Source: Bacillota bacterium (lineage in GTDB: Bacteria > Bacillota > Sulfobacillia > Sulfobacillales > Sulfobacillaceae). Taken from it: a stretch of 64,000 bases of DNA. The notes under the pieces are model-generated. The model was not told the origin of the DNA, searched no databases, and worked only from the letters and a program-made list of their open reading frames with translations. Positions 33,395 through 43,905 of this stretch are shown here, piece by piece; the stretch's first letter is position 1; each line of letters opens with the position of its first letter. Location of the stretch: assembly GCA_021841025.1 (NCBI GenBank), contig JAKBWA010000118.1, forward strand, positions 1 through 64,000, given 5' to 3'. Made by a program: the position numbers and the translations under genes.

Positions 33395-33875
33395 TTACTG
33401 GCCTCCTTAATTGACCACTAAAATTTTGACCCTTCTTCTTTAGGCGCATAGGCTTCTCGAAATGACCTCACTTCTTAGACGAATTCCGAGAACACTATGA
33501 GTTTAGCGCAATGCTCACACTACGGCAAGATTTTGACCCTTGCGGGCCAACCGATTCTGATGTTTCCCAAGACTTGAACGCCACTCGAATGTGCTTAGCA
33601 CCTCTTCATGGATTGTGTCAAATATTGACCGAGGATGTTGCGATGGGTGATCTCACAGAGACAAAAATGGTAAAATTATAGAAGGTCATGGTGTTGACCG
33701 TGGTTTTGATGTGCCTGATTCTCAGGATGATGACACCTACCAAAGGGTGGGTGTATTTTTGTGGCTTGCTGATAATCTAATCCACTGCTCCCATCTCTGT
33801 GAATAAATAGCGGCGGAACCGATCGGCACGAGCTGATCGGCGGGCCAATAATGATCTTTAGAGGCGGTGTGGAAT
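33395..33875. other. Intergenic region with repeated ATTTTGACCCTT
   Basis: The 12-mer ATTTTGACCCTT occurs at 33423-33434 and 33530-33541 in the same direction, and a related TGTCAAATATTGACC near 33616. Repeated internal motifs of this type are found at IS21-family ends, so this could be a relic of one; no istA or istB sequence is seen. No gene is convincing. Confidence 0.3.
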
Positions 33876-34787
33876 ATGGGAAATGACCTTCCGCTATTTT
33901 CCCCTCATGCCGATCCGGTACAGTTGGGTTGGTGGGCATGGAGAGCTGGGCATACTCAATGCTATTCTTGTCTTCCTCACCTTCGCGATCTTATCGGTAA
34001 TCGTCAGTATGATGAGTCGGTTCGGGAAATAGCATTGTCATCTTATTGGATACTCGGCGATGTAGACAATGCGGCCGAATTGCAAGAGACTCTCCTGAGC
34101 CAAAACGACTTCTCCTTAGCCTTGCGCGGCGTGCAACATCCGCGCTGGTGGCATGATCCCTCTTGGTTGAAGGCGTGTCAGAGATGGTTAGGACGGGATC
34201 CTTTAGTGGATGAGGCCATTGTGAGGATATGGCATTGGTCTAATTGGCTCGCGAAATATGTTCGGGTGCCGCGAGAAGTTTTAGAGCGGGCGCACGTGGC
34301 GACTAGAGAGAGAACGATAGACTGGGAGAAAATGTGGCGACTGGGACAAAGTCACCTCGGTGCCGGAACTCTTCCGGGATTTGAAGGATTCTGGCTCGGA
34401 CATATTCGTCAGTGGTCATCACGGTGGCTTCAGTGGGAAGAGGCCATATGGCGGTATTACTGGCGCCTTAAGGAAGAAGAACGGTTAGTAGAATGGACGC
34501 ACAAAGAAGATCGGGGGCTTCGGATGCCTAAACTTCCCGAGGTGGTTAGTGTTGAGCTCCCCGAACTTCAGAGTGCGGAAGACGGTCTTACCCGCATGGC
34601 TTTGGGCCTGGGCTATCATGTCGGTGCCGCGGACAGTGAGATAGGTTGTGCGGCATGGGATGGTATTTGGTCAAGTTGGGCAGCCAGTCTCAACTACCAG
34701 TTATATGAGATCCTCAGTAATGTGAGAATTACGGAGTGGCATATTGCGGGGCTGTCTGGACTTCTTCAACATATCCCGGACTGGTGA
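33876..34787 (+). CDS. Tryptophan-rich hypothetical protein
   Basis: 303 residues, soluble, with an unusually high tryptophan content (over 20 Trp, several in pairs such as RWWHDPSWL and WSSRWLQWEEAIWRYYWRL). Mostly helical pattern, no signal peptide. ATG 33876 has GAGGCGG 8 bases upstream; an in-frame GTG at 33867 overlaps that site. I do not recognise the family and the neighbours give no clue. Confidence 0.7.
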   Translation: MGNDLPLFSPHADPVQLGWWAWRAGHTQCYSCLPHLRDLIGNRQYDESVREIALSSYWILGDVDNAAELQETLLSQNDFSLALRGVQHPRWWHDPSWLKACQRWLGRDPLVDEAIVRIWHWSNWLAKYVRVPREVLERAHVATRERTIDWEKMWRLGQSHLGAGTLPGFEGFWLGHIRQWSSRWLQWEEAIWRYYWRLKEEERLVEWTHKEDRGLRMPKLPEVVSVELPELQSAEDGLTRMALGLGYHVGAADSEIGCAAWDGIWSSWAASLNYQLYEILSNVRITEWHIAGLSGLLQHIPDW

Positions 34788-35631: not shown

Positions 35632-37767
35632 TCAAGGGACGACCCATAAAGACAAGGAAATAGCCAATAAGAGCGTGATGAGAGCATAGGCAATATAGAC
35701 ATTGATTTTTCCATGGTGAATGCGAGCTAGCATTTGGGCTGCACTTTGCACTAAAGTGGCCAGGGGGAAAAATACGAGACGGTCGACGACGTAGGATTCT
35801 CTGACTTCACGCCGCACCATGGTATGAAAATGAGCGGCTGAGAACTGCTCGTGTTCCACCGGTTGATAGGGACGCAAAATGGCGCGAAATATGACCACGA
35901 TCGGATTTGAAAAACCGGTTGCCGTGTAATGGGCATCGGCTGGCAATTCTTTAACACCGCCTTGCCAGGGTTCATGACGGACGATCTGCTTGTGCCGTTT
36001 GGCTATGCGAATAACGACATATACCAGGCCTAGCAAGATGGCCATGGCTATGGCCAAATAGGAGGGGGAACTCGCGAATACGACATTTTGCAGGGGTTTG
36101 GGACTTTGGTATAGAAATACCAATCCGGGGCCCGGCAGGATATGACTCCCAAGTTCTGCACCTAAAGGGCCAAAAGTCCGAGCCAAGGCTTGAGGCAAGT
36201 GCTGCGGAGAAAAAAACGCCGGAATTAATCCACTTTGGGTGCCGCCTTGAGCGAGTTCTACCGCGAGAAAGGACAATCCCGTGGCCACGTAAGTCGGCGT
36301 CACACCCAAGATTAGACAGCCTAATGCCAGCATTCCCAACGCCCATCTTGGCCCATGCCCGGCTTCATGAGCATTGGTGGCGCCAGGGGAGCGGCCTCGG
36401 CCTAAAAAGACCATTCCGTACAATTTGATGAAGGCTGTGGCCGCAAGACCTGCGGTGAGAGCAACTATCACTCCACTGAAGGCAAAAATCACTTGATCAA
36501 TTGTGGATTTTAGGACCACGCTGCGAAGCAGGCTTTGAATGATGAGCCATTCGCTGATGAATCCATTAAACGGAGGCAATGCGGAAATCGCCATGACTCC
36601 CACTAACATAAAAACCGACGTCCAGGGCATCAGCCTGGCTAAGCCGCCTAGCCTATCCATTTCCAAATCTCCTGTACTGACGTCGATCCAGCCGACTCCC
36701 AGGAACAAAAGCGACTTATACACCGAATGATTTAAAATCTGATAAAGGGCGGCCACGCCTGCAATCCAGGCGAGCTCTGGCAAGTGATCCGCACGAAATG
36801 CAAACATGGCTCCCAGAGCCGTCGTGATGAGACCCATATTTTCAATGGAACTGTGAGCCAACATACGTTTCAAGTGATTTTCGGTGCTTGCGTACAAAAT
36901 GCCAATTAAAGCCGTGACACTTCCTATGACCAAGATGAGAAGGCCCTGAAGGGGATCATGAATGGGCCAGAGCACGGCGTTAATTTCGATAATGCCGTAG
37001 ATGCCGAGATTTAAAATGACCCCCGAGAGTATTGCTGAAAAATTTGCGGGAGCCGCCGGGTGGGCTCTCGGCAGCCAGCTCATACTGGGGAATAGCCCGG
37101 CTTTGACTCCAAAGCCGAAAAATGAGCAAAGCATTACAGCCCATCCTAGACCCAAGGATGCGGAATGATACTGTGCTGATGCAACTTGAATGGCAGAGAA
37201 ATCGATGCTGTGGGATACGTCAATTAACGGGAGCCAGGCCCCCAAAGTCAAAAGAAACCCTGCTTCACTGGCCCCAAGCATCATATACCCGGCTTGCGTA
37301 TGGGAATCATGGAGATGTTCGAAATTTACAGCGAGGTAACTGGCTATCGACATGATCTCCCAAGCAAAAAGAAAGGTGATGACATCTTGCGCCAAGAATG
37401 TCAAGACAATCGCCATCATTAGGACATGATAGAGAAGAGAAAAATATCGCAAATCATAATGTCCGTGCAAACGTTTGAGGTATGCTGGAGAAAACCACGA
37501 AACCGGCAAAAAGACGAGCCCGGTAATCAAGATGAAAAATGCGCTCAGACGGGGTTCTCCGACTACGAGAAAGCCCCAGCCTTGCAGAAACCACAAATTC
37601 AGTGACCAGGAGTGTATGAAGAAGGAGACGATTCCACTGTAAAGCAAGGCGGCAGCAGCCAGTGACCCCATCACGCTGCTTGCGCGCGTCACCCTATGAC
37701 TTTTTATTGTGAATGGCAGCACTGTGGCTAGTAGGGACACTGCCATAAACACGAGAAAGCCTATCAT
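35632..37767 (-). CDS. HyfB/NuoL-type proton-translocating antiporter subunit of Ehr-like complex
   Basis: 711 residues with about 16 hydrophobic segments. The antiporter core has the conserved Glu in FLFAWEIMSIASYLAV and the Lys in GFGVKAGLFPSMSWLPRAHPAAP, as in complex I antiporter subunits. A C-terminal extension with a last membrane helix ends the protein. Role: ion translocation driven by the peripheral redox arm. ATG 37767 is chosen: GGGGGTGAG lies just upstream and it overlaps the previous stop by 4 bases. Last gene of a six-gene operon running from 43215. Confidence 0.88.
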   Translation of the reverse strand: MIGFLVFMAVSLLATVLPFTIKSHRVTRASSVMGSLAAAALLYSGIVSFFIHSWSLNLWFLQGWGFLVVGEPRLSAFFILITGLVFLPVSWFSPAYLKRLHGHYDLRYFSLLYHVLMMAIVLTFLAQDVITFLFAWEIMSIASYLAVNFEHLHDSHTQAGYMMLGASEAGFLLTLGAWLPLIDVSHSIDFSAIQVASAQYHSASLGLGWAVMLCSFFGFGVKAGLFPSMSWLPRAHPAAPANFSAILSGVILNLGIYGIIEINAVLWPIHDPLQGLLILVIGSVTALIGILYASTENHLKRMLAHSSIENMGLITTALGAMFAFRADHLPELAWIAGVAALYQILNHSVYKSLLFLGVGWIDVSTGDLEMDRLGGLARLMPWTSVFMLVGVMAISALPPFNGFISEWLIIQSLLRSVVLKSTIDQVIFAFSGVIVALTAGLAATAFIKLYGMVFLGRGRSPGATNAHEAGHGPRWALGMLALGCLILGVTPTYVATGLSFLAVELAQGGTQSGLIPAFFSPQHLPQALARTFGPLGAELGSHILPGPGLVFLYQSPKPLQNVVFASSPSYLAIAMAILLGLVYVVIRIAKRHKQIVRHEPWQGGVKELPADAHYTATGFSNPIVVIFRAILRPYQPVEHEQFSAAHFHTMVRREVRESYVVDRLVFFPLATLVQSAAQMLARIHHGKINVYIAYALITLLLAISLSLWVVP

Positions 37768-38483
37768 GTTCTCACCCCCTGTGTTCTCATCTCTTCCGAC
37801 TTTGCACCCATAAGCAGTTGAAAAGCATGGAGCAGGGCTAAAGGCGGGGGTGGGCATCCCGGTACGGAAAGATCCACGGGAAGTATTTTTTCGAGCGGAC
37901 CGGCGAGCGCAAAACTCGAAGCAAAAAGTCCTCCCGAAAGAGCGCAAGTTCCCACGGCCACAACGCGTTTAGGACTGGGCATGGCCTGATAAGCTTCTTG
38001 CACGGCCTCCTTCATGGACACCGTTATGGGTCCGGTGATGACGAGCACGTCGGCATCGCGCGGTGTCGGAGTGAAGGCAATTCCCAAGCGGTGCAGACTG
38101 TATACAGGGCTGGCCAACTGATGCAGCTCGTTGAGACAGGCCCCGCAATCGCCTGCATCCACGACTCTAATATGCAGTGAATGGCGGAAAGAGTGAGGAA
38201 GCCTTGGTGATGTCATTTGGGCCCATTGATAGCCTTCTTCCCATGACATTCGGTTTTGGTCGGGCTGTTGGTGGCACAAACGACAGTGAATGCACCGGGT
38301 GTAATCCACCGTCATGACATTTCCGTGTTCTTTTAACGCCTGAGTTGGGCAAATGGTCTCTGGGGGCGCATCGAGAAGCGGCGTGGGGGCGGGACGGCCA
38401 GGCGACAATCCATTCAATGGAGACGGTGCTTTGGAGCTTACGGTCTTCTTGGGATGAGTCAGACCCATGCGAAGCCACAACAT
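37764..38483 (-). CDS. Fused ferredoxin-like/NuoB-like Fe-S subunit of Ehr-like complex
   Basis: 239 residues. A short N-terminal half-ferredoxin supplies Cys45 (CPTQAL) and Cys64, Cys67, Cys70 (CIHCRLC), enough for one [4Fe-4S] cluster. The C-terminal two thirds are a NuoB/HycG-type small subunit with the proximal-cluster ligands Cys113, Cys116 (GDCGAC), Cys180 (GTC) and Cys210 (PGCPPPP). HyfH and HyfI are separate in formate hydrogenlyase; here they are one chain. All Fe-S ligands are kept, so electron transfer to the large subunit interface is possible. ATG 38483 has GAGGAGG 9 bases upstream. Confidence 0.85.
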   Translation of the reverse strand: MLWLRMGLTHPKKTVSSKAPSPLNGLSPGRPAPTPLLDAPPETICPTQALKEHGNVMTVDYTRCIHCRLCHQQPDQNRMSWEEGYQWAQMTSPRLPHSFRHSLHIRVVDAGDCGACLNELHQLASPVYSLHRLGIAFTPTPRDADVLVITGPITVSMKEAVQEAYQAMPSPKRVVAVGTCALSGGLFASSFALAGPLEKILPVDLSVPGCPPPPLALLHAFQLLMGAKSEEMRTQGVRT

Positions 38484-38548
38484 AGCAAATTTCCTCCTCG
38501 GTAAATCATTTATCCATATAGGGGTGTCAAATCTTGGCAAGTCTCTTG

Positions 38549-40111
38549 CTAACGATCCAAATCGGCTACGGAGAGCCCAAAAGTTGCCATGATGATGGGG
38601 AAATCTTGAAAGGCAAAATGCCTGATCGCATCGGGAAAAGCATGCCAGTTCACTAACCCAGGGGTAATGATGCGGCAGCGTTCCACCATCCCCTGATTGT
38701 TCGATGACACGGCACATAAAACGGATCCGCCAGGGCTTTCAACATACCCGAAAGCTGTCCTTAGCGCTGGGTGGAATTTATCTGTGGGAACGACTTCACC
38801 CGGTGTTAGCATGGAAGGAATCTGTTGGATAATGCGGATTGACTGCGTCATTTCCTGAGCCAACTGTCGAAACCTAGCATACCCGTCCCCTTCGGTTTGC
38901 ACTGGCACGTCGAAGACGACGTTATCATAAGCGGCATAAGGTTGATGAATTCTTACGTCCCGGTGGATCCCCGAAGCCCGCCCCACCGGGCCCACCAACC
39001 CGTGAGTTCGGGCACGCTCACCACTGAGAGTGCCTACGGCTTCTAAACGGTCCAAAAAACTGTTGTCAAAGGTTAACGCATCCAAAATCTCTTGTGAGTG
39101 GTGGACGAGGGTTTCCAGCCGCTTCACAATGTGTTGGATGTCTTCGGCACTCCAATCCCGGCTGAGGCCTCCTAGTCGGATGAGACCGAATAGATAGCGG
39201 TGTCCGCTAAAAGCTCCCGAGATTTGCAACAACTCTTCTTCTTGAGCTTGGAGCAAATTTTGGGGAACGGACAACCCAGTCGATTCTAAAATGCCGGACA
39301 GCACTTGCAAATGAGAGCGTATGCGTTCAATTTCGGCCCAAAATACGCGCAAGAGTTGTGCTCGAGGTGAAATTTGAAGATCTCCCAGTGTCTCCCAAGC
39401 CTGAGCCATTGCGAGAGCATGGGAAAAAGCTGTTAGGCCGTCGATACGCTCGGCAATTAAGAGAGATCCCATGGGTGTTTGCCCTCTCATAAGCTTTTCT
39501 ACCGCCCGGTATTTATAAAATGGCCGAATGTGGGCAAACACAATCTCTTCGCCCACTGTTTCGAGGCCAAATTGAATCGATTCCGCTGTTCCTGAGAAAA
39601 CAGGTCCAATCGGCATCACAAAGGAGCCTGAGGCATCAACAATGCGGTGTGTTCCCAAATCTTCAAATCCGTTTGCTTTTTGGTGAATCTCCCACGAATG
39701 ACGTTTCATCGGCGCCGTACCCTCAGGCCAGTGACTATCGTGCAAAACGAAATCTCCGAGTTGCGGATGACCCGCGAAGCTAACGTCGAACAAGTCCTCC
39801 ATCTCCCGTTCCTGCCAATCCGCGGCAAATAGAATGTTACTGATGGAGGGAATGACTTGGTCATGGTTTCTCACTTCCATTCCCAGCCATGGACCTTTTG
39901 GCGTGTAAAATACGTAAAGGAGCCGCAAACTTTGGGTTCGGGCATCATCTTCGGGGACAATGCCGACAAACGTCCACTGAGGACTTAACTGACTCACCAA
40001 TTGAGGGAGCAGGGAGGCTGGGATTGTAAGGCGGATCCCATTCGATTCGACTCGCCTGTTTATGTCTTGATGTTGTGTGAGAATCATCTCTAGTTCTTGT
40101 GCTGCTGTCAT
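38549..40111 (-). CDS. NuoCD/HycE-like large subunit lacking the NiFe cysteines
   Basis: 520 residues. N-terminal NuoC-type 30-kDa domain (ADWQEREMEDLFDVSFAGHP near 97-116), then the 49-kDa/NiFe large-subunit fold from about 165. In hydrogenases the active site is held by CxxC in the ERVCGIC region and by DPCxxC at the C-terminus. Here these read ERIDGLTAF (221-229) and TFGLSVADLDR (510-520): all four ligand Cys are absent. Ending directly at this position, with no cleavable tail, is like NuoD and Ehr proteins. A hydrogenase activity is therefore very unlikely; the substrate, perhaps a quinone, is unknown. Confidence 0.88.
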   Translation of the reverse strand: MTAAQELEMILTQHQDINRRVESNGIRLTIPASLLPQLVSQLSPQWTFVGIVPEDDARTQSLRLLYVFYTPKGPWLGMEVRNHDQVIPSISNILFAADWQEREMEDLFDVSFAGHPQLGDFVLHDSHWPEGTAPMKRHSWEIHQKANGFEDLGTHRIVDASGSFVMPIGPVFSGTAESIQFGLETVGEEIVFAHIRPFYKYRAVEKLMRGQTPMGSLLIAERIDGLTAFSHALAMAQAWETLGDLQISPRAQLLRVFWAEIERIRSHLQVLSGILESTGLSVPQNLLQAQEEELLQISGAFSGHRYLFGLIRLGGLSRDWSAEDIQHIVKRLETLVHHSQEILDALTFDNSFLDRLEAVGTLSGERARTHGLVGPVGRASGIHRDVRIHQPYAAYDNVVFDVPVQTEGDGYARFRQLAQEMTQSIRIIQQIPSMLTPGEVVPTDKFHPALRTAFGYVESPGGSVLCAVSSNNQGMVERCRIITPGLVNWHAFPDAIRHFAFQDFPIIMATFGLSVADLDR

Positions 40112-40116
40112 AAGAA

Positions 40117-41550
40117 CTACCTCCTTAAGGCTAACGTTGTTAGCGTTAACAGATGATGAACTGAAATGGGAAGATACAGACCAAATGCCAAGACCGGAAT
40201 CCAGCTAATAACCAGAGTCAACACCACAGAGTGGGGCAAAGTGATCGGTGGATGAGACGGCTGGCCAAAGACCATGTGATTGAGATGGCGCATAACGCCG
40301 AAAAATGCTAGGGTTAAAAACGCCAGCAACAGGGCGAGCACGATCACGTGGCGAGATATCAAGGCGGCACGGAAAATGGAAAGCTCGCTGAGAAACACAG
40401 CAAAAGGCGGCGCCCCGGCGATTGCCAAGCCGCTCAAAAGCAAACTCCCCGCTGCTATGGGTGATATGCGTATCAATCCTCTGACGGATGCGATATCCAG
40501 TGTGGAAGTCGCTAGAAATGCCGTGCCGGCACTGTAAAAGACCAAGGATTTGGTGAATGCATGGGTTAGTAATTGATATAACATGGCATAATGACCCGCT
40601 GGACCTAAGCCCAATCCCACGAGCAAAATTCCCATTTGTTCCACGGTAGAAAAGGCAAACAGGCGTTTAAAATCGCGCACTTGGATCATCAGCAATGCCG
40701 CGGTTCCCACCGAAATGAGTCCGAAGACTAGCGCCCAATTTTGAGCAAATCCCCCCGGAATTTGCTCAAAGACCGGCCAAAGTCGCATAATCACGTACAA
40801 AATGGTGCTGACTTCAATGCCCGACAGCAGGGCACATACGGGCGTGGGAGCCTGGGAATGGGCATCGGGCAGCCAAGTATGCATGGGCACGATGCCTACT
40901 TTGGTGCCAAAGCCGATAAAGATCAGTACGAAAGCCAATTTCAGCTGAATGAGTGGTATCCTAGGAGCTGCTAGTTTGAGCGTGTTCCAAGTTTGAATGG
41001 ATACGTGCAAGTTCAACAGACCCCAAAGTAAGAGAAAAATTCCCAGCACGGCAACGGTGGCCCCCATGATAGTGATGACAGCGTATTTCCAAGCCGCTTC
41101 GAGCGCCTTGGGGGTATTTTCAAAGCCGACCAAGAAAACGGATAGAACTGTCGTGAGCTCCACGGCGACCCATGTCAAGGCTGGTTGCAGAAAAATAGGG
41201 ACCATAAACAAGGAGGCCAGGAACAAATTGAGATTCACATAAAAGTGTTGTTGGCGCTGAGGACGAAGCGACGTGACCCGTTTCATATATCCCCACGAAT
41301 ACACGGTTGCGGTGAAGGCGACAAAACTTTGCAAAACGAGAATTAATGCACTGAGACCGTTTACGCCAACCCAATGAGGCAAAACCGTAATGCGAAAATG
41401 CTGGGTGATTTGCTGAGCGACAATAAGTGTGAGAATCAATGTCGCGGCGCTTCCCAACACTGAGACAATCCGAACGATATTAAGGCGGCGGCTAAAAAAT
41501 GCGACCAACGCAGCCAAAACGGGTATCAGAGGAACGGCGATAATGATCAT
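40117..41550 (-). CDS. HyfF/NuoN-type proton-translocating antiporter subunit of Ehr-like complex
   Basis: 477 residues, about 14 membrane helices. Conserved Glu in TWVAVELTTVLSVFLVGFE and Lys in GFGTKVGIVPMHTWLPDAHS, the proton-path residues of the antiporter family. It overlaps the previous gene by 4 bases and ends 5 bases before the large-subunit gene. With the HyfB-like subunit it gives the complex two antiporter modules. Confidence 0.88.
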   Translation of the reverse strand: MIIIAVPLIPVLAALVAFFSRRLNIVRIVSVLGSAATLILTLIVAQQITQHFRITVLPHWVGVNGLSALILVLQSFVAFTATVYSWGYMKRVTSLRPQRQQHFYVNLNLFLASLFMVPIFLQPALTWVAVELTTVLSVFLVGFENTPKALEAAWKYAVITIMGATVAVLGIFLLLWGLLNLHVSIQTWNTLKLAAPRIPLIQLKLAFVLIFIGFGTKVGIVPMHTWLPDAHSQAPTPVCALLSGIEVSTILYVIMRLWPVFEQIPGGFAQNWALVFGLISVGTAALLMIQVRDFKRLFAFSTVEQMGILLVGLGLGPAGHYAMLYQLLTHAFTKSLVFYSAGTAFLATSTLDIASVRGLIRISPIAAGSLLLSGLAIAGAPPFAVFLSELSIFRAALISRHVIVLALLLAFLTLAFFGVMRHLNHMVFGQPSHPPITLPHSVVLTLVISWIPVLAFGLYLPISVHHLLTLTTLALRR

Positions 41551-42245
41551 CGGGATTCACCTTCTTCTTCGCCTTCTTTGAGAACGGTCAGTTCCGACAC
41601 CTCGGTGGATCCAATATGTTGTGCCAGTGTACGGGCTAAAATAGCCGCAACCAATACGACCATTACTCCTTCCAAGCCTGCTGCCAATTCCACAATGGCT
41701 GATGAGGTGGTAATGGCAATGCCTGCATAAAATGCCCCGTTGTCAATGGTCATCATGGCAAGCATTTGCGGGATTGCTTCGCCCCGGACAGTTAAGGTGT
41801 AAACACCGATGAGAAGGACATCCAGGCCTACCGGAAGATTCACTAAGACACTTTGATTGGCTCCATGCAAAAGAGGAGCCACAAAGAAATACGACAAGAT
41901 GCTGAGAACAATGGCAATGACAAGAGACATGGGGGTATTGACAACGAATTCGAGTTCCCGGCGGGAACGAATCTCGGGACCGAAAGTCGTGGTGAGCAAC
42001 CGAGGAATGACGATTGACTTGGCGCCGATGGTAATAAGACCTACGATTATCAGTTCTGCCGAATGATGGATCCATCCTAGAATAAAAGCCGATAGAGCCA
42101 AAAGAATCGATTGGCGGATGAACCATCGTAACACGGCTTGGGCCTGGCGCTGGGTCATCAGCACGATTGCGCTGAGTAAAAACAAGGCGCCTACCACGCT
42201 GTTTACGTTGGTGAGCAGATCAGTTATGACTAGTGGCTGGTTCAT
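41547..42245 (-). CDS. HyfE-like membrane subunit of Ehr-like complex
   Basis: 232 residues, about seven membrane helices, HyfE-type (a fusion-like equivalent of NuoK plus an extra region). The segment RQSILLALSAFILGWIHHSAELIIVGLITIGAKSIVIPR carries a Glu in a membrane helix as in NuoK. ATG 42245 is used: AAAGGGA lies 8 bases upstream; the longer in-frame start adds 14 polar residues. Stop overlaps the next start by 4 bases. Confidence 0.85.
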   Translation of the reverse strand: MNQPLVITDLLTNVNSVVGALFLLSAIVLMTQRQAQAVLRWFIRQSILLALSAFILGWIHHSAELIIVGLITIGAKSIVIPRLLTTTFGPEIRSRRELEFVVNTPMSLVIAIVLSILSYFFVAPLLHGANQSVLVNLPVGLDVLLIGVYTLTVRGEAIPQMLAMMTIDNGAFYAGIAITTSSAIVELAAGLEGVMVVLVAAILARTLAQHIGSTEVSELTVLKEGEEEGESR

Positions 42246-42264
42246 AGGTATTCCCTTTCTCTTA

Positions 42265-43215
42265 TTAGAAATGGAATGGCTGTACAATCATGGCGATCAC
42301 TGCGGTCACAAAAGCGATGCCAAGAAAATCTGGAATCCTAAACAACCGCAATTTGGCCAAAGACGTTTCGATGACGGCAATGACAATGACAAATCCTGTG
42401 ATTTTTAGACTTATTCGCAAGATGGCCGCTAACAGATCGAGCGCGCTTAGGTGCGTAGCTAAGCCCCAAGGTGTGAGCAAGACGTTTAATAAAACGATGC
42501 TTAAAACCATAAATTTCATGTATCCGCCCCATTTGATCAGCGCCCGTGATGAACCCGAGAATTCCAGAGTTCTTGCCTCGTCAATCATGGCCAGCTCAAA
42601 ATGACCGGCAGGGTTATCGACGGGAATTCTTCCCGTTTCCGCTAAGATGATCATGATAAACGCGGCTACAATCAAAAGATGGGTGGGAGAATAAAACGCG
42701 GCGGGCGTTGATACCCAATGCGCTTGTACGATATAAGGGATGGTGGAATTCGCAGCAAAGGACACCGAGAAAAAGACAATGATGAAAATGGGCTCTACCA
42801 AGGAACTGACCATGCGAGTTCGGCTGGAACCCATAAAACCATAAACGCTACCTGCATCCATAGCCGCCAGTAAAAGGAAAAAGGCTCCGGCGGAAAGGAT
42901 AAATCCTGCAGCAACCATATCTCCCATGAATGCCATGAATAGAGGGTAATCGGTGAGAACAGGAATCAACAGGGTGACGAGAAGCGGTGAGATGAAGTAG
43001 ATATACGGAGCAAAGCGAAATATCCAGGTAGATTGTGAGGATACCACTTCACTTTTGTGAAAGAGTTTCCACAAGTCATAATATGGCTGCCATACGCTAG
43101 GACCCTGTTTGGCTTGCATTCGCTCTTCGATGCGAGTTAAGAAACCTTGAAAAAAGGGAGATAGTAAAAGCACCACGAACACTTGACATAGATTGAACAA
43201 GATGTGAACGGCCAC
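42265..43215 (-). CDS. HyfC/NuoH-type membrane anchor subunit of Ehr-like complex
   Basis: 316 residues, about eight membrane helices. Diagnostic NuoH-family stretches: RMQAKQGPSVWQPYYDLWKL near the N-terminus and ETGRIPVDNPAGHFELAMID in the middle, with the conserved acidic residues of the quinone-chamber loop. It links the peripheral arm to the antiporters. GTG start: AGGGGG lies 7 bases upstream. First gene of the operon. Confidence 0.9.
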   Translation of the reverse strand: MAVHILFNLCQVFVVLLLSPFFQGFLTRIEERMQAKQGPSVWQPYYDLWKLFHKSEVVSSQSTWIFRFAPYIYFISPLLVTLLIPVLTDYPLFMAFMGDMVAAGFILSAGAFFLLLAAMDAGSVYGFMGSSRTRMVSSLVEPIFIIVFFSVSFAANSTIPYIVQAHWVSTPAAFYSPTHLLIVAAFIMIILAETGRIPVDNPAGHFELAMIDEARTLEFSGSSRALIKWGGYMKFMVLSIVLLNVLLTPWGLATHLSALDLLAAILRISLKITGFVIVIAVIETSLAKLRLFRIPDFLGIAFVTAVIAMIVQPFHF

Positions 43216-43905
43216 GCCGACGCCCCCTAATTGACAAAAATATTCACTCTTTCAGTTTTTTGCAGTACGGGTGCTGCGTTTGAACTGTTTGTCAGGGAGG
43301 AGAGATTTCTCTAAGCGGCACAAACCCCGACGCAATGGCAATGATGTTCCGGTTATAGAGTCTCAAGCAAACGTATAGGGCTAATAACTCCTCCCTTGAT
43401 TGGGGTAGGAGTTATTAGCCCTCGGGGCATAGCGTGAACTCCATCACGTGGTGCCATTATAAATAAAACGCGAACTCTTATCAAGCAACAGGAAAGTCGT
43501 TCATTTGTTATACGAATATTCACATAAAAATAGGAAATGCCTACGTTTAAGAGGATAACGATTCCATTCTCCGTACGATCAAGTTCGAAACGTTGCGCTA
43601 AATTCGCCCTTTGGTCGTGGCACTGCCGTGTCACCCGTTTTGGCGGGCGCTTGTTCCTCGGGACTTTTCTGTTCCGCGGGCGAAATATTCTTTTACGTTC
43701 AGATATTTGTGGCCGAATTGCCACTTTTCATCGATCGCCATTAAGACAGTCTCTACAAGGCGTAGAGCCAAGGGCATGCAAATGACCCGGCCCCGGGATC
43801 TTTTTCGTAGAGAAGAAATGTGGATGGCGGAAAATTGCAATAGGGGTTTAAATATTAGTAGTTAACAGATCTTGTTGTGAAAACATTAATGAGGAGGATG
43901 CGGCC
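43216..43905. other. Intergenic region upstream of the Ehr-like operon
   Basis: A 690-base gap between divergent genes. It contains the perfect 15-bp inverted repeat GGGCTAATAACTCCT / AGGAGTTATTAGCCC at 43378-43392 and 43407-43421, about 165-205 bases before hyfC-like GTG. A 123-codon minus-strand frame (43353-43724) has no ribosome binding site and unlikely composition, so I do not call it. No clear -35/-10 pair is seen. Confidence 0.4.
43378..43421. repeat. Perfect 15-bp inverted repeat, 14-base loop
   Basis: Arms at 43378-43392 and 43407-43421. No T-run on either side, so it is not a plain Rho-independent terminator. As an RNA on the minus strand it would lie in the leader of the Ehr-like operon. 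Confidence 0.75.

Follow-up and report, generated by a model that had tools for sequence, protein, structure and literature searches.

Membrane complexes that have the architecture of group 4 [NiFe] hydrogenases without the metal site form the class of energy-converting-hydrogenase-related (Ehr) complexes, a name that goes back to Coppi 2005 and Marreiros 2013 (as cited in PMC4378227, PMC6688271, and PMC7894505). In Sulfobacillus, six-gene syntenic Ehr clusters, with a large subunit lacking the NiFe motifs, were reported with "function unknown" (Justice et al. 2014, PMC4378227); the passages of that paper that we found mention neither a riboswitch nor fluoride. The Rv0081-Rv0087 genes of Mycobacterium tuberculosis (EHR, PMC6728331) also make up an Ehr set, which according to that paper is not a functional hydrogenase; this locus is tied to the regulator Rv0081 and, likened by description and not by sequence, stands closer to the ArsR-linked types than to the locus described here. 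From the RNA side, "formate hydrogen lyase" genes were listed downstream of crcB/fluoride riboswitches (PMC2864571, PMC11139923), and both Weinberg 2010 and the later review treat these loci as formate-oxidising formate hydrogenlyase (FHL). Here we analysed a stretch of 64,000 nucleotides from an acidophilic Bacillota bacterium of the Sulfobacillaceae (assembly GCA_021841025.1, contig JAKBWA010000118.1, positions 1 to 64,000; hereafter, the window), in which six contiguous minus-strand genes (35632-43215) have the make-up of an Ehr complex and stand behind a fluoride riboswitch. The locus is of the same genus group as the Sulfobacillus clusters, and the finding as first written in the original prediction, made from the window alone, is not new, having been reported in 2014 (Justice et al., PMC4378227). 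The riboswitch, which is common to a whole clade within the broader Ehr class, is the first physiological handle on the complex; no link between Ehr and the fluoride riboswitch was found in a search of 5.39 million open-access papers.

The genes of the window operon follow the order HyfC, HyfE, HyfF, large subunit, fused HyfH-I, and HyfB (Table 1), and scans against Pfam and NCBIfam returned NADHdh (HyfC), hydrogenase-4 HyfE and HyfF, Complex1_30kDa plus 49kDa, Oxidored_q6, and HyfB. Antiporter-like and NuoH-like membrane subunits and a NuoB-like small subunit are thus united in one operon, in which the NADH module NuoEFG was not found. Among solved structures, the best match of the large subunit was HycE of Escherichia coli (E = 1.6e-43), and its predicted fold (predicted local distance difference test 82.5; predicted template modelling score 0.86) most resembled HycE from the E. 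coli FHL over the full length (Z 45.3, root mean square deviation 2.3, 474 residues), with NuoD chains behind. At the positions of the HycE nickel ligands C241, C244, C531, and C534, the window subunit has Cys in none of four. Across 34 members of the clade (window included), Cys was counted 0, 2, 2, and 0 times at these positions; the full NiFe ligand set, with the two CxxC pairs of group 4 [NiFe] hydrogenases, occurs in no member. A search for the maturation gene HypD across the entire host genome (3.39 Mb, 97% complete; statements on this genome as a whole rest on family searches) gave no match, nor were formate dehydrogenase or maturation genes seen among the flanking genes scanned. The original prediction had named six contiguous Ehr-type genes, a large subunit devoid of NiFe cysteines, and the absence of formate dehydrogenase and maturation genes nearby, and all three hold; the gene names also stand, with the starts of the fused subunit and HyfB refined to 38483 and 37767. 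By its ligand count, gene set, and place in the tree (see below), the cluster is, as was originally proposed, an Ehr complex and no hydrogenase.

Relative to E. coli hydrogenase-4 and FHL-1 (HyfG/HycE, 7z0s), the fold and the subunits are the same, whereas the window lacks the metal ligands, the N6a cluster, and the Hyp and formate genes, has the HyfB gene last and not first, and is predicted to be under fluoride regulation. That fluoride induces a working NiFe hydrogenase or formate hydrogenlyase from this locus, following the older annotation, would agree with this shared fold and gene set and with the connection drawn between formate hydrogen lyase and the riboswitch by Weinberg 2010 (PMC2864571) and the 2024 review (PMC11139923). 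However, the ligand count already contradicts it, HypD was not found and no fdhF stands beside the operon, and no riboswitch was found near ten CCCC group-4 loci of other Firmicutes or near genuine FHL loci in Pantoea and E. coli, so that we consider this explanation highly improbable. The riboswitch-linked members examined here are all without the NiFe ligand set; the loci listed in those two papers are probably of the same class, and what is called "formate hydrogen lyase" under fluoride riboswitches is probably the present Ehr clade. The missing C-terminal maturation peptide was dropped as proof of a lost NiFe site, because the Firmicutes CCCC group-4 enzymes also end three residues past the last ligand.

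The original prediction was incomplete in that it overlooked the fluoride riboswitch 183 bases upstream of HyfC. This aptamer (RF01734) is the sole above-threshold Rfam match in the 64-kb window, and a genome-wide riboswitch search recovered it again. Promoter boxes (-10 perfect, -35 near-perfect) stand directly ahead of it. The folding energy of the leader is -47.8 kcal/mol, well below that of shuffled sequences (z = -6.0), and its terminator-like hairpin incorporates the 3' part of the aptamer; comparable overlapping hairpins are readable in the loci L007-L011, and many crcB RNAs have an inverted repeat overlapping the aptamer 3' part (Weinberg et al., PMC2864571).

In the host genome, three riboswitch matches were obtained, of which the two over the cut-off both stand ahead of Ehr operons, that of the window and a second one on contig C37 (L030, 5951-13659); the third, just below the cut-off, lies 1.9 kb past the 3' end of the window operon, before the open reading frame 33867-34787. 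The second operon has a DUF190 gene upstream, and its small subunit holds the N2 ligands only, with no ferredoxin part. Besides the two Ehr clusters, the genome has two complex I-type operons (L031 and L032 on contigs C38 and C27), one set being a full NuoA-N-type with NuoEFG-like genes and the other being without the EFG-like module; neither has a riboswitch. When riboswitch positions were compared with large-subunit positions in 34 genomes of the family, in which three Ehr types and complex I were separable by score, the riboswitch was found in 7/7 operons of Ehr1 (the window type), in all 26 assessable operons of Ehr2 (the contig C37 type), in 0/16 of Ehr3, and at no complex I locus. Two Ehr2 loci, at which contig ends cut the locus before hyfC and no riboswitch is visible (G030:C1 and G025:C121), were left out of the count; the probable other half of a cut G025 locus, on contig C67, starts with hyfC and has a riboswitch ahead of it. 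With about 100 matches in about 120 Mb, we estimate that about 0.01 coincidences would be expected by chance in the 700 bases before the operons. The type 3 operons of the family genomes (L074-L081) are ArsR-linked, keep three of four NiFe-type Cys (CGAD, CYSC), and have neither a ferredoxin part nor a riboswitch.

Relatives of the locus were first collected through large-subunit similarity alone. All loci in this collection whose sequence extends beyond the start of HyfC have a riboswitch at or over the threshold, with the exception of L008 and L010, in which the motif search finds a clear aptamer just under it. The riboswitch-bearing relatives belong to Acidobacteriota, Thermodesulfobacteriota/Myxococcota, Nitrospirota, Actinomycetota, Pseudomonadota, and Bacillota, the nearest named relative of the window being a Sulfobacillus benefaciens bin (L009, 74% identity), and in 6/17 genomes of other phyla the sole fluoride riboswitch is the one ahead of Ehr.

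Trees of the large subunit (47 and then 52 sequences) united every member with the switch in one group (support 100/98 and 99/99), in which six phyla or more are represented, and the label "switch-bearing" needs one change on the tree; some long branches occur, about which the tree program gives a warning. Besides types 1 and 2, the clade comprises Mycobacterium branderi, Caballeronia, Burkholderia multivorans, and an Alicyclobacillus plasmid protein. Type 3, the ArsR-linked and other Ehr, the four-Cys group 4 hydrogenases, HycE/HyfG, and complex I fall outside it, so that the phylogeny proposed with the original prediction sets the window subunit apart from NuoD, HycE/HyfG, and the four-Cys hydrogenases. 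No riboswitch was found nearby at any checked locus outside the clade. The gene order within it is C-E-F-CD-HI-B; outside, HyfB stands ahead of HyfC wherever the order was read, and this includes the other Ehr (Ehr3, Rhodococcus, S. fredii, P. caribensis, Allomeiothermus, and the Firmicutes "SESG" type), which have no riboswitch. Since the Ehr of Rhodococcus, S. fredii, P. caribensis, Allomeiothermus, and the "SESG" type also have none of these four ligands, the total loss of NiFe cysteines was dropped as a cause or mark of the fluoride link. On the plasmid of Alicyclobacillus sp. ALC3 (L039, 8534-10236), a lone Ehr large subunit stands directly behind a fluoride riboswitch, the other five genes not being beside it, in an island with CrcB, DUF190, MFS, and MutS-like genes.

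The region of the former active site in the window large subunit contains K200, E221, R222, and H231. K200, within the loop that carries the quinone His in complex I, is invariant in the clade (34/34), as is Ser351, and outside the clade Lys was found at position 200 in 1/18 and then 2/20 further sequences; E221 and S351 are near-specific to the clade, Arg222 and His231 are common to clade and hydrogenases, and the subunit has dozens of invariant residues. Because Lys200 and Ser351 are kept clade-wide together with the Arg222 and His231 shared with hydrogenases, the alignment indicates that the former NiFe pocket is remodelled and not merely emptied. The rebuilt chamber (invariant K200, E221, and R222, with R387) might bind F- or hydrogen fluoride (HF), which the complex would export by coupling removal to the antiporter arm, with CrcB as a passive partner; the complex I superfamily would then have its first anion pump. 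The rarity of K200 outside the clade and the near-specific E221 and S351 would suit active extrusion, and so would the genomes in which CrcB was not detected (G003, G004, G012, G021, G026, and G031), all of which have a riboswitch-controlled Ehr; G004 (97% complete) and G012 (95%), with a riboswitch-controlled Ehr2, show neither a CrcB nor a CLC match. The membrane paths, however, show the usual cation-type residues, and K200 is also present in the riboswitch-less ArsR-linked L122/L123 and in one riboswitch-less Ehr3, on account of which it was dropped as an exclusive mark of the fluoride clade; fluoride extrusion is considered unlikely. The idea that CrcB and Ehr replace each other was likewise given up, as the pattern was not significant with just three well-covered genomes lacking Ehr1/2.

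The quinone-site residues of complex I, which we take to be His38 and Tyr87 (Nqo4 numbering), correspond to Tyr201 and Gly225 in the window; the quinone-site His is kept in L037, L038, L039, and L103. A quinone-reducing pump, equivalent to complex I minus the NADH module and with an incidental fluoride switch, could draw on the resemblance of the membrane and large subunits to complex I and on the small cluster chain that persists to N2. Gly in place of the quinone-site Tyr and Tyr in place of His38 speak against it, as do the two riboswitch-less complex I-type operons that the host genome already has and the predicted fluoride regulation across phyla, and we hold it to be improbable.

The fused small subunit of the window contains one ferredoxin-type cluster, which is N6b-like (Cys-Pro plus CIHCRLC), and complete N2-type ligands (CGAC, TC, GC), whereas the N6a ligands, which HyfH normally has, are missing; the statement that both Fe-S clusters are kept is therefore right for these two, and the third cluster expected for HyfH plus HyfI is lost. 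Both antiporters of the window retain their Glu/Lys/His ion-path residues, and the alignment bears out what had been said of Glu and Lys. Within the clade, the cluster set varies: N6b and N2 in Ehr1, N2 only in Ehr2, which has no ferredoxin domain, and all three in Caballeronia and B. multivorans. On a plasmid of M. branderi (L037, 10324-11118), the small subunit of a fluoride-switched Ehr keeps the ferredoxin-type cluster and has lost all N2 Cys. No shared redox partner gene was seen across 23 loci. Of the pump driven by ferredoxin or quinone that had been proposed, the pumping residues stand and the drive is possible, but the quinone Tyr is absent, the cluster chain varies, and one member is without N2. 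These features leave some room, at a clearly lower probability than the redox-driven pump described below, for a non-redox Mrp-like H+/Na+ (or K+) exchanger that runs on existing gradients, the peripheral arm being a structural relic: M. branderi has the riboswitch and the membrane subunits without any N2 ligand, Ehr2 lacks the ferredoxin domain, no redox partner gene is common to the loci, and Na+/H+ antiporters are a common class under fluoride riboswitches (PMC11139923). Against a relic, the arm appears to be under selection in Ehr1 and Ehr2, given that the N2 ligands are present in every examined small subunit of Ehr1 (23 rows) and of Ehr2 and that the large subunit has its many invariant residues, and M. 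branderi is a single long-branch sequence.

We favour, with a probability of about 65%, a clade-specific, fluoride-induced, and ion-pumping Ehr complex that would guard pH and membrane potential against HF. The complex is probably part of bacterial fluoride survival rather than a hydrogen enzyme; its fluoride link, resting on regulation and context, is probable, and we infer the redox partner and the ion. Transcription is predicted to start just ahead of the aptamer, and fluoride binding would let the six-gene operon be read, because the 3' part of the aptamer is shared with the terminator-like hairpin. HF entering an acid-grown cell would release H+ and F- inside; HF makes cells more acidic and reduces their proton-motive force, and among the gene classes under the riboswitch, Na+/H+ antiporters rank in frequency directly behind the exporters (PMC11139923). 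The induced complex would move cations outwards, most likely H+, by which the cytoplasmic pH would be restored and the membrane potential would become less positive inside, so that F- could leave through its channel. Because acidophiles are positive inside and very fluoride-sensitive (PMC12831704), a passive F- channel alone would, in our reasoning, serve them badly. The drive in this lineage would most likely be electrons that a low-potential carrier (e.g., ferredoxin) supplies and that reach an acceptor close to the former active site by way of the N6b-like and N2 clusters; this step is the weakest of the proposal. As the cluster sets vary across the clade, we place the redox-driven pump ahead of the gradient-driven antiporter, and direct fluoride export behind both.

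Several observations weigh against the favoured explanation. The window aptamer is barely over the Rfam cut-off (34.6 vs 34), although its position, the promoter, the hairpin, and the relatives (up to 55 bits) back the marginal score, and the U run after the hairpin is weak. The host genome has a CrcB pair, and Ehr is therefore not its sole fluoride defence. The cluster sets (full, N2 only, or no N2) speak against one common redox reaction, and in the Acidobacteria L013, L017, and L020 the Glu of transmembrane helix 5 is replaced in both antiporters (Arg in HyfB, Ala in HyfF). These three loci keep the riboswitch and the remaining ion-path residues.

Two loose ends would be joined here, namely the Ehr complexes, of "function unknown" since their naming, and the "formate hydrogen lyase" that has stood unexplained on the lists of fluoride riboswitches since 2010, a large multi-phylum Ehr clade probably being what those riboswitches control. 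A complex for which there was no assay would gain an inducer, a phenotype to seek (fluoride tolerance, cytoplasmic pH), and tractable relatives such as the soil Caballeronia; the link is also of interest for bioleaching, in which fluoride poisons acidophiles such as Sulfobacillus. The clade is also a natural case of complex I superfamily members shedding parts of the electron path, which may help to separate pumping from the redox step.

Table 1. Features of the fluoride-riboswitch Ehr locus in the window
Feature	Position	Strand	Basis and remarks
Promoter (TTGATA, 17-base spacer, TATAAT)	43456..43484	-	Direct reading; L007 and L009 have the same layout before their aptamers
Fluoride riboswitch aptamer, RF01734, crcB motif	43399..43457	-	Rfam 34.6 bits, gathering score 34, E 7.7e-6
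Terminator-like hairpin GGGCTAATAACTCC...GGAGTTATTAGCCC, putative expression platform	43378..43421	-	Fold of the leader
HyfC/NuoH-like membrane subunit, 316 aa	42265..43215	-	NADHdh 4.9e-33; GTG start at 43215
HyfE-like membrane subunit, 232 aa	41547..42245	-	PRK11492, 9.1e-17; start 42245
HyfF antiporter-like subunit, 477 aa	40117..41550	-	Pfam/NCBIfam; start 41550; E131, E151, K217, H330, K334, E389 kept
HycE/NuoCD-like large subunit, 520 aa	38549..40111	-	Family scans, structure match; start 40111; 0/4 NiFe Cys
Fused HyfH-HyfI small subunit, 239 aa	37764..38483	-	Pfam/NCBIfam scan, ligand alignment; start 38483 behind AGGAGG
HyfB antiporter-like subunit, 711 aa	35632..37767	-	Pfam/NCBIfam; start 37767 (ATGA overlap); E137, K222, E309, H347, K351, E406 kept
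Second fluoride riboswitch, sub-threshold	33675..33746	+	Genome-wide riboswitch search; 32.4 bits vs cut-off 34
306-aa protein of unknown family behind the second riboswitch	33867..34787	+	No Pfam or PDB match

Among the neighbours of the clade loci are genes with a known tie to fluoride resistance, namely crcB, enolase (eno), pyrophosphatase, mutS-like pairs, DUF190, universal stress protein, and MFS, and further riboswitches. With fluoride-neighbour genes as tblastn queries, matches were obtained in 22/39 clade loci and 0/18 others, the 22 being inflated by self-matches because the queries were taken from some of the clade loci. A dense fluoride island with many riboswitch matches (L092, on the above-mentioned contig C67 of G025) contains hyfC, two mutS-like pairs, a CrcB pair, two DUF190 genes, a GPR1/FUN34/YaaH-like transporter, eno, two pyrophosphatases, and MFS. 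The 306-aa protein behind the second riboswitch of the window is likely, from the company it keeps, to represent a new fluoride-stress protein family; its relatives sit in fluoride islands in L007, L009, L092 (behind eno and pyrophosphatase), and L093.

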